Shown here one piece after another: positions 8,719 through 24,077 of a stretch of 33,723 nt of DNA. The translations under genes were made by a program, and so were the position numbers. Under the pieces are notes generated by a model that saw only the letters and a list, made by a program, of their open reading frames with translations, was not told the DNA's origin and did no database searches. Within the stretch, counting starts at the first letter, position 1. The number at the start of each line of letters is the position of its first letter. The DNA is taken from IMG/VR virus record IMGVR_UViG_3300042397_000547, positions 1 to 33,723 of that record, one strand, 5' to 3'. This stretch comes from a virus.

Positions 8719-8858
8719 ATGAACCTAAAACATTAAGAGAAATAGCTGAATCTGAGGGGATTAGCCATCAAGCTATTACTGAAATCATTGAACGAGCATT
8801 AAAAAAAATTCAAAAAGAGTTGGAAAAACGCAATATCAAAAAGGAGGATTTACTATGA
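8715..8858 (+). CDS. Sigma-70 region 4-like mini helix-turn-helix protein, 47 aa
   Basis: Begins MNEPKTLREIAESEG at 8715 with a TGGAG site about 10 bp upstream. It ends TGA at 8858 with a 4-bp overlap to the next gene. The sequence LREIAESEGISHQAITEI followed by IERALKKIQKEL follows the helix-turn-helix of sigma-70 region 4.2 (the EIA..LGIS...V..IE.RAL.KLR pattern) but has no other sigma domain. It could bind -35 sequences or the RNA polymerase flap and thereby redirect host polymerase to late phage promoters, or it could be an anti-sigma-like or general DNA-binding protein. The domain match is by eye. Confidence 0.65.
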   Translation: MNEPKTLREIAESEGISHQAITEIIERALKKIQKELEKRNIKKEDLL

Positions 8859-9136
8859 AAGAGAGCCATGTCATTCAAGAACAAGATGGAAGTTTTACTG
8901 TTAATGTTAAAGGTAAAGCGAAAGTTACTTATACGGAACCCATCCCTTTTTTGGGAATATATGAGGAAAGTATGGAAAATGAAAAGCTAGCAGTTGCTAA
9001 AAACAGCACATTTAGATATTCATCAGGTAGCGATGTACTAAAGACTTGGAAGGCATACGGATTCGTACCACCTTCCACAGTTCGTAATGACTACCTTTTT
9101 AAGGCAAACCGCATAGCTTCAGGGCTATCAAAGTAA
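8855..9136 (+). CDS. Last gene of rightward operon, 93 aa, unknown
   Basis: Starts MKESHVIQEQDGSFTVNVKG at 8855 with a strong AAGGAGG site 8 bp upstream. The N-terminal half is strand-rich, the C-terminal half (DVLKTWKAYGFVPPSTVRND) may form a small helical domain, and the end is basic. No family was recognised. Its TAA stop forms part of the first stem of the structured element between the two converging operons. Confidence 0.7.
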   Translation: MKESHVIQEQDGSFTVNVKGKAKVTYTEPIPFLGIYEESMENEKLAVAKNSTFRYSSGSDVLKTWKAYGFVPPSTVRNDYLFKANRIASGLSK

Positions 9137-9225
9137 GGCGTAGATTTGGCGATTGCTATCTGTAGGGAAGAAGGCAGAAAAACTCCCTACTTATCGCATC
9201 CTCTAATGTCTGCCTAACCGCCTTA
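9134..9225. ncRNA. Candidate structured RNA or two-way terminator with pseudoknot
   Basis: Three nested stems are visible: TAAGGCG (9134-9140) with CGCCTTA (9219-9225), GCGAT (9149-9153) with ATCGC (9193-9197), and GTAGGGA (9162-9168) with TCCCTAC (9184-9190). The apical loop (9169-9183) contains AGGCAGA (9172-9178), which is exactly complementary to TCTGCCT (9209-9215) outside the inner stems and could form a 7-bp pseudoknot. The outer stem includes the stop codons of both converging genes. Being an inverted arrangement, it can form on either strand. There is no U-run, so it is not a standard intrinsic terminator. No known RNA family was recognised. Confidence 0.55.
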
Positions 9226-9831
9226 ATCGTTGCGTAGGATTGCTAGGACTTTTTCAGTTCTAGCTTTCCTATCTTCCAATCCGTTTAAGCCACCATTGAT
9301 TTTCTTGGTGATGCCTTCAATATCCATAGGATTTTTATCAGCAAGCTCATTAAGATTGCGTTTGTTCCAGTACCATCCTGCGCTTAAAGACGCATATTCA
9401 GGAGTAGCAAGCAAATCAGGGTCACTAAGAACATCCACACCAGCATTATGTCCGAAATTAGCATAGTTCTCTCTACCTGTAAGTTGGATTAGTCCACGAC
9501 CACGATACTTCCAGCCATCGCCTTCTTCAATGTTACCCATACGACCTGAATAAACTTTGTTAGCTATCTTTTCAGGATTATTAGCGTATTTTTCGGCTGT
9601 GTCCATATCAGGGAATCGGCTTCCCCAGGTACGCATTAAAGCAGCAGCAGAGTAATTAAGGTTTTCAGATAAGAACTTAAAGCCCCCTGATTCGTGCATC
9701 ACTTGAGCTAAAAAACACGCCTGTCTTTGTGGCGTATTAATGTCGTATTTTTCAAAACAATGGTTTAAACCGTCTAACCATTTATCGTCTAATCCTAGGG
9801 AATGGAGTTTTTCAAGAGTCAATTGAGCCAT
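9223..9831 (-). CDS. Endolysin, GH19 chitinase/lysozyme family
   Basis: A 202-residue glycoside hydrolase family 19 enzyme. The probable catalytic acid is E47 in HESGGF, and the second carboxylate is E56 in SENLNYSA. The substrate groove contains WKYRGRGLIQLTGRENY (about 106-122), and the C-terminal INGGLNGLEDRKAR is typical of GH19 endolysins. It cleaves peptidoglycan glycan chains at lysis. There is no signal peptide, so it needs a holin for release. It is the last gene of the late operon, 4 bp after the membrane-protein gene, and its TAA stop lies in the outer stem of the structured element. Confidence 0.92.
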   Translation of the reverse strand: MAQLTLEKLHSLGLDDKWLDGLNHCFEKYDINTPQRQACFLAQVMHESGGFKFLSENLNYSAAALMRTWGSRFPDMDTAEKYANNPEKIANKVYSGRMGNIEEGDGWKYRGRGLIQLTGRENYANFGHNAGVDVLSDPDLLATPEYASLSAGWYWNKRNLNELADKNPMDIEGITKKINGGLNGLEDRKARTEKVLAILRND

Positions 9832-23090: not shown

Positions 23091-24077
23091 TTAGGTTGTC
23101 AACAAGCCTTGCAAGAAGCGGTTAGAAGTAGTCAAGTTACCAGCCCAACCGTATAACTTCACGATTGCATCTTGGTTAATCGCTTGACGCTCGCCACCGA
23201 TAGGTACAAAGTTACGCTCTTTGTGAGGGCGGAAGAAAATGTAGTTAGTGTTGAGCATATACATATAAGTAGCTGTCTCTTGTGAGCCATAACCACCACC
23301 AAGTACCACATCAGCAGATGTACCGCCACCGTAGAACTTCAATGAAGCAAAGCCTGAAGCACCTGATTCCTCAGAAGCGATACGCTGAATAGCTTGCAAA
23401 GAGTTTACATAGAGTTGATACATTGTGTTACCAGCAACAATCAAGTCAGCCTTGTCAGTACCACGAATCTGCTTGATAGCAGCTTCAGTCATCTTAGCAA
23501 GGATGTTTGTTGTAGCAGGAGTTGTAGTTACACCAGTAGTAATCTGGTTACGCCAGAAGTCCCAGTTAGCAGCATTAATGCCACCGTAAGTACCTAGTGT
23601 AGGAGTAGCAGAAACAGCAGCTCCCAAACCATCTAAGTTCTTACCACCGTTACCTGTACCGTTACCATAAAGGTCACCAGAGATACGGTTAAGCAAACGA
23701 GCTTCAGAAACTTGCATACGACCATCTAAAAGGTCAATGATTGCTTCTTTAGAGCTGTTTTGCAGCATTTCAAGACCAGACATAGTTACTGAGTCTGCGT
23801 ACTGAGCAATTTTGTACTGAGCAGCAGAAATAGGGCTATCTGGAGAAATGTTCAATACTTCGTAACCGCTATATGAATTAGCGTTATTAGTATTTGGGTC
23901 GTTGTACATGATTTCTTCAAGAATCACATTACCACCTGAGAATGGGCGTACATTGCCCTTCTGGTTTAAACGCTGAAGAATCGCATTGTTTTCTGTTAAG
24001 TTGTCTGCCAATTCACCGCTACGACTTTGAATAGTGGTAGCGATAATATCGGTAATAGCTGAGTTAGCAAATGCCAT
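23091..24077 (-). CDS. Major capsid protein
   Basis: A 328-residue protein, the usual size of HK97-fold capsid proteins. It begins MAFANSAITDIIATTIQSRS, and has an N-arm and E-loop-like region (NVRPFSGGNVILEEIMYND), a spine-helix-like segment (AIIDLLDGRMQVSEARLLNR), and a late domain with LIVAGNTMYQLYVNSLQAIQ and NTNYIFFRPHKERNFVPIGG. The fold cannot be proved from sequence alone, but position directly downstream of a scaffold-like gene and the strong AAGGATATATC ribosome site support it. It forms the head shell. Confidence 0.85.
   Translation of the reverse strand: MAFANSAITDIIATTIQSRSGELADNLTENNAILQRLNQKGNVRPFSGGNVILEEIMYNDPNTNNANSYSGYEVLNISPDSPISAAQYKIAQYADSVTMSGLEMLQNSSKEAIIDLLDGRMQVSEARLLNRISGDLYGNGTGNGGKNLDGLGAAVSATPTLGTYGGINAANWDFWRNQITTGVTTTPATTNILAKMTEAAIKQIRGTDKADLIVAGNTMYQLYVNSLQAIQRIASEESGASGFASLKFYGGGTSADVVLGGGYGSQETATYMYMLNTNYIFFRPHKERNFVPIGGERQAINQDAIVKLYGWAGNLTTSNRFLQGLLTT

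Follow-up and report, generated by a model that had tools for sequence, protein, structure and literature searches.

At the junction of two converging genes in IMG/VR virus record IMGVR_UViG_3300042397_000547 (33,723 nucleotides, referred to here in full as the window), 92 bases can be folded into nested stems tied by a pseudoknot. This locus raises the questions of whether the fold is a real RNA structure, whether it belongs to a known class, and what it might do. The first-pass annotation had described it as a possible undescribed structured RNA.

The element occupies positions 9134–9225, with the minus strand as the predicted functional strand, and was matched by the R1 model at 9132–9227 with 114.3 bits, a score obtained on a sequence that was itself part of the R1 training set. 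The stems of 7, 5, and 7 bp were found where they had been placed, at 9134–9140/9219–9225 (outer stem a), 9149–9153/9193–9197 (helix b), and 9162–9168/9184–9190 (helix c) in plus-strand numbering, and the loop AGGCAGA at 9172–9178 was indeed complementary to TCTGCCT at 9209–9215, giving a 7-bp pseudoknot (helix p). The four helices already named were thereby retained, and a fifth, the nested 4-bp helix d (TAGA/TCTA, 9141–9144/9202–9205), which had been overlooked, was added. Read along the minus strand, the 5' arms follow one another as a (9225–9219), p (9215–9209, AGGCAGA), d (9205–9202, TAGA), b (9197–9193), and c (9190–9184), after which the U-rich loop of stem c contains the 3' pseudoknot arm p' (9178–9172, TCTGCCT), followed by the remaining 3' arms c' (9168–9162), b' (9153–9149), d' (9144–9141, TCTA), and a', which ends at 9134.

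The stop codons of both converging genes lie in the outer stem, as had been noted: the 3' arm includes the TAA at 9134–9136 of the plus-strand ORF 8855–9136, and the 5' arm includes the stop at 9223–9225 of the minus-strand ORF 9223–9831. The latter, on the same strand as the RNA element, matched the endolysin family phrog_181 in PHROGs (E 2.1e-82) and has the Pfam domain Glyco_hydro_19. ORF 8855–9136 encodes 93 amino acids, gave no match in PHROGs and Pfam searches, and is conserved in at least 33 viral contigs. Elsewhere in the window, positions 23091–24077 encode a major head protein similar to those of Myxococcus phage Mx8, Stenotrophomonas phage BUCT555, and Bradyrhizobium phage ppBjS10J-1 (48–51% identity).

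Taken by itself, the window sequence was barely above chance and not convincing. Its nested fold had a z-score of −2.63 on the plus strand and −1.75 on the minus strand, single-strand folding was uninformative overall (z from +0.15 to −2.6), and the combination of outer stem, inner hairpin, and 7-bp pseudoknot arose by chance 15 times in 60 shuffled windows, or about 0.25 per window. Comparative evidence, on the other hand, places the predicted structure far above chance. When 17 distinct copies were aligned, 19 of the 30 pairs showed two-sided changes and the pseudoknot was 100% paired. A larger alignment of 76 distinct sequences, comprising 72 phage rows and 4 rows of Atu_At1 (At1), raised this to 27 of 30 pairs, compared with a mean of 16.0 after shuffling and 3–10 in slid controls; 92.5% of cells were paired, versus 32–41% in the slid controls. 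The covariation score was 0.368 against 0.121 in shuffled alignments, and none of 500 shuffles reached either this score or the count of 27 pairs. These counts ignore kinship, and as the copies are related they do not represent independent events. The 76-sequence alignment was fitted to the nested structure, which biases it toward the nested part, with the pseudoknot lying outside the fitted model.

Within the 76 sequences, two-sided changes were observed at six of seven pairs in helix a (86.1% of cells paired), six of seven in pseudoknot p (99.4%), four of five in helix b (96.6%), and all seven in helix c (84.8%), while helix d was nearly invariant among phages, was altered on both sides in the At1 rows, and was paired in 100% of cells. 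The pseudoknot arms were exchanged in concert among copies, occurring as AGGCAGA/TCTGCCT, AGGTAGA/TCTACCT, AGGCAAG/CTTGCCT, AAGCCGA/TCGGCTT, AAGCCAA/TTGGCTT, and AAGACGG/CCGTCTT. The first-pass annotation had named compensatory changes in all of its helices as support for an RNA; such changes were present in every one, and a structured RNA with a true pseudoknot is strongly supported. Judged by this covariation, the 92 bases form a genuine knotted RNA structure of five helices.

The pairing also indicates the strand. The strand call was confined to well-aligned pairs (p, d, b without its last pair, and inner a), in which 8 G·U and 0 A·C cells were counted on the element strand; the window minus strand is therefore the folding strand. 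Counting all columns gave 25 G·U and 31 A·C cells, a result explained by fraying of the three outermost pairs and by misalignment of stem c in the short-type copies. This bias shows the predicted functional strand to be the minus strand, running along the endolysin gene.

Copies of the element were sought by pattern scans of IMG/VR, whose contigs represent uncultured viruses, and at least 91 copies were found among its phages when distinctness was counted with 25-nt flanks. One copy was present in each of 15 phage records (15/15), and the record of locus L064 had a second copy at the opposite contig end, which is probably an end repeat. Many uncultured bacterial viruses carry the element, as a rule in one copy per genome. 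Blastn searches of named phages with three element copies returned none, the plasmids searched contained no copy of the phage type, and genomes from 84,980 species gave no exact pattern match. The R1 model gave no match in 399 Pseudomonadota genomes, in a run that included no positive control, and a joint phage/At1 model matched only At1 when run over genomes. A spirochaete pattern match (L193) was rejected, with the rest of the fold absent and no match to RF02496.

The description of this RNA as undescribed holds only in part, since the element is the phage counterpart of Rfam Atu_At1, with the same fold. In a permissive Rfam search of the window, RF02496 (Atu_At1) was the best of 4227 families, matching at full length on the minus strand at 9135–9228 (23.8 bits, E 0.087), and the only other matches were two weak ones to snoRNAs. 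RF02496 also ranked first for the copy at L064, which differs considerably from that of the window (20.5 bits, full length); for the short-type copy at L104, it was absent from the listed matches of the same kind of search. Because the phage copies score 20–24 bits and the gathering score of RF02496 is 60 bits, we would not file the phage element as a member of this family. The closest known RNA is nonetheless RF02496, a Rhizobiales sRNA. A reverse search, in which a phage-only model was run over 13 phage and 26 At1-bearing loci, found the 13 phage copies and then 10 further matches, all on At1 elements. With the joint model, the window scored 100.9 bits and 19 At1 copies outside its training set scored 17–55 bits. 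The helix arrangement a, d, b, c is common to both, and the At1 copies of pAtC58 (L195) and Sinorhizobium (L196) carry the phage helices position for position in other letters, single end pairs excepted. In an At1-only alignment (A3, columns 21–27/62–68), the pseudoknot was 99.2% paired, with two-sided changes at three pairs; it is not shown in the RF02496 structure line printed by cmscan. One alignment of phage and At1 sequences, made with MAFFT (A4), was left out because its 3' half was misaligned.

At1 is a known transcript. In A. tumefaciens C58, the 118-nt intergenic sRNA pAT_55271R (55271–55154) was detected at about 140 nt on a Northern blot, had its ends mapped by 5' and 3' RACE, reached 3597 RPKM in AB medium, and was kept after TEX (Lee et al. 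2013, PMC3738593, Table 4). The RF02496 match on pAtC58 covers 55272–55165 on the minus strand, and the phage model match (L195:2997–3106) corresponds to 55271–55162, starting at the mapped At1 5' end. Among 199 genomes from the order to which Rhizobium sp. AAP43 belongs, 23 contained At1, as did 153 plasmid records, nearly all of them from Rhizobiaceae. Three genomes (G198, G517, and G451) had two At1-like matches each, with the pair in G451 lying 5.8 kb apart on one contig.

The mapped ends of At1 bear on one explanation in particular. A new class of self-cleaving ribozyme would account for a small knotted core whose unpaired letters are conserved and which has no set neighbour gene, and the size, the pseudoknot, the scattered single copies, and the invariant core letters recall how other small ribozymes were discovered; the element matched no known ribozyme. 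At1, however, is a whole RNA of about 118 nt that is kept after TEX and has its mapped ends outside the fold; no internal cleavage is therefore evident, and we regard a ribozyme as improbable. More generally, Rfam 15 at gathering score gave no match in the window, known ribozymes and riboswitches included, and a riboswitch was rejected on this result. Type III toxin-antitoxin RNAs consist of tandem pseudoknot repeats beside a toxin gene; this class was rejected, as the element occurs as a single copy per record with varied neighbours. A CsrA-type GGA site (AGAGGAUG) was set aside, being single, outside a hairpin loop, and varied in At1.

Genomic context was examined at the junction occupied in the window, which was located in other phages through 33 viral relatives of the 93-aa gene. 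In most of these loci the two stop codons were almost adjacent, and in four (L005, L015, L017, and L018) the element occupied the same junction in the orientation opposite to that of the window. The phage copies are patchy, with free orientation relative to the flanking genes and no constant neighbour: they lie beside two endolysin families, a capsid gene, SSB, a PD-(D/E)XK nuclease, and terminase-adjacent genes. At1 copies likewise have no constant neighbour gene. An operator-like repeat, TTTAGACATTTGTTTAAAC, was observed upstream of the element, between the preceding gene and the RNA, in five loci (L282, L292, L296, L297, and L313). In four others (L228, L231, L285, and L309), the promoter of the next gene (TTGACA, 17 nt, TAnnAT-like) started precisely where the outer stem ends on its 3' side.

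Some features of these surroundings would suit a knotted 3' UTR structure acting in cis, which would stop exonucleases or help to end transcription of the preceding gene. Many copies start no more than about 10 nt from a stop codon, or immediately follow a terminator, the outer stem supplies the stop codons of both convergent genes, and a T-run on the element strand starts right at the 3' end of the element in 9 of 28 distinct contexts (0–5 at other offsets), with no A-run excess on the other side. A role confined to the preceding gene is nevertheless hard to reconcile with the two orientations at one junction, with copies lying between divergent or opposite genes (L156 and L216), and with a set of unpaired letters, conserved with At1, that exceeds the needs of a block. 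Moreover, At1 is a separate transcript and the window copy has no U-run, so that we consider this explanation unlikely. The view that the window element is not a normal terminator was borne out, as CTTTGATAG rather than a U-run directly follows the stem. A two-way terminator or an origin, both raised earlier, found no support, with U-runs after the structure confined to one strand and to roughly one third of contexts.

The uneven distribution, and the occurrence of either orientation at a single junction, could also reflect a small mobile DNA, or a portion of a homing cassette mobilised by an HNH nuclease, whose hairpins would be read as single-stranded DNA. A motif search of the 857 kb of loci recovered 18 small HNH-like genes, confirmed as HNH by PHROGs, and all 18 adjoin an element (L085, L220, L235, L243, L246, and L271 among others), 16 of them ending inside it on the opposite strand. 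These account for only 18 of the at least 91 copies, and the phages that carry them are related. The usual single copy per genome and the outer stem letters, which are not conserved as those of a recombinase site would be, also speak against mobility, and the G·U asymmetry between strands and the existence of an At1 transcript favour RNA; we give this possibility little weight. REP- or MITE-like mobile DNA has many copies per genome and conserved ends, and was rejected given one copy per phage and an outer stem of varying sequence.

The best explanation, in our view, is a phage-borne small RNA, stand-alone or released, that acts in trans. We hold this to be reasonably probable, in agreement with the small RNA that the first-pass annotation had listed among its suggestions. 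Atu_At1, which is transcribed, shares its fold and its unpaired signature letters, and the lack of a constant neighbour together with the two orientations at one junction fits a role in trans better than service to one gene. Two observations count against it: copies lying directly after a strong terminator (L216, L220, and L245) leave little room for a promoter, and no −10-like site was found just upstream of the element in the window. The element would encode a compact knotted RNA of about 92 nt on the window minus strand, presumably transcribed in phages under its own promoter or else freed from the 3' end of a co-directional transcript, here that of the endolysin gene. The outer stem would close the molecule and protect or end it, in some phages with a U-run after the stem, and the knotted core with its conserved unpaired letters may bind a host or phage partner; it is from context that we infer action in trans. 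A broader and more tentative proposal, which we rate as possible but doubtful, is that phages and rhizobial plasmids and genomes share a class of knotted RNA that either targets a conserved component of bacteria in trans or is self-cleaving, and that has been disseminated by mobile DNA as a small independent RNA gene. To our knowledge, no RNA of this fold has been given such a function.

A pseudoknotted RNA of uncultured phages that is related to an abundant Agrobacterium sRNA provides a concrete RNA that can be tested in phages and in Agrobacterium alike. Covariation among the phage copies exposes a pseudoknot missing from the Rfam At1 structure line, and this tells experimenters which part of At1 to mutate. 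The element also adds to the few structured RNAs known from phages.

Comparison with known systems places the element closest to At1. Like intrinsic (Rho-independent) terminators, it has a closing stem by stop codons, followed in some phages by a U-run; unlike them, it has a closing stem that encloses about 78 nt with four further helices, has conserved unpaired letters, and in the window has no U-run. It resembles HEARO and the IscB omega RNA in being a structured RNA that adjoins an HNH gene in some phages, but these genes are short (about 110–136 aa) and stand beside only 18 of at least 91 copies. An omega RNA was rejected, as there was no Rfam match and 17 of the 18 short HNH genes lay on the strand opposite the element. 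With At1, the phage element shares all five helices at matching positions, including the 7-bp pseudoknot. In both, the pseudoknot arm is preceded by GU[UC]A and followed by GAC, AA separates helix b from helix c, and the 3' pseudoknot arm is preceded by a U-run and followed by UUCU/UUCC; neither has a constant neighbour gene. The two differ in that the At1 insertion GCCAACGAA..GGCAG..CGAG between c' and b' is missing from the phage copies, which have eight unrelated bases or none there, in that the phage copies are AT-richer, and in that At1 was seen here only in alphaproteobacterial (Hyphomicrobiales) genomes and plasmids.
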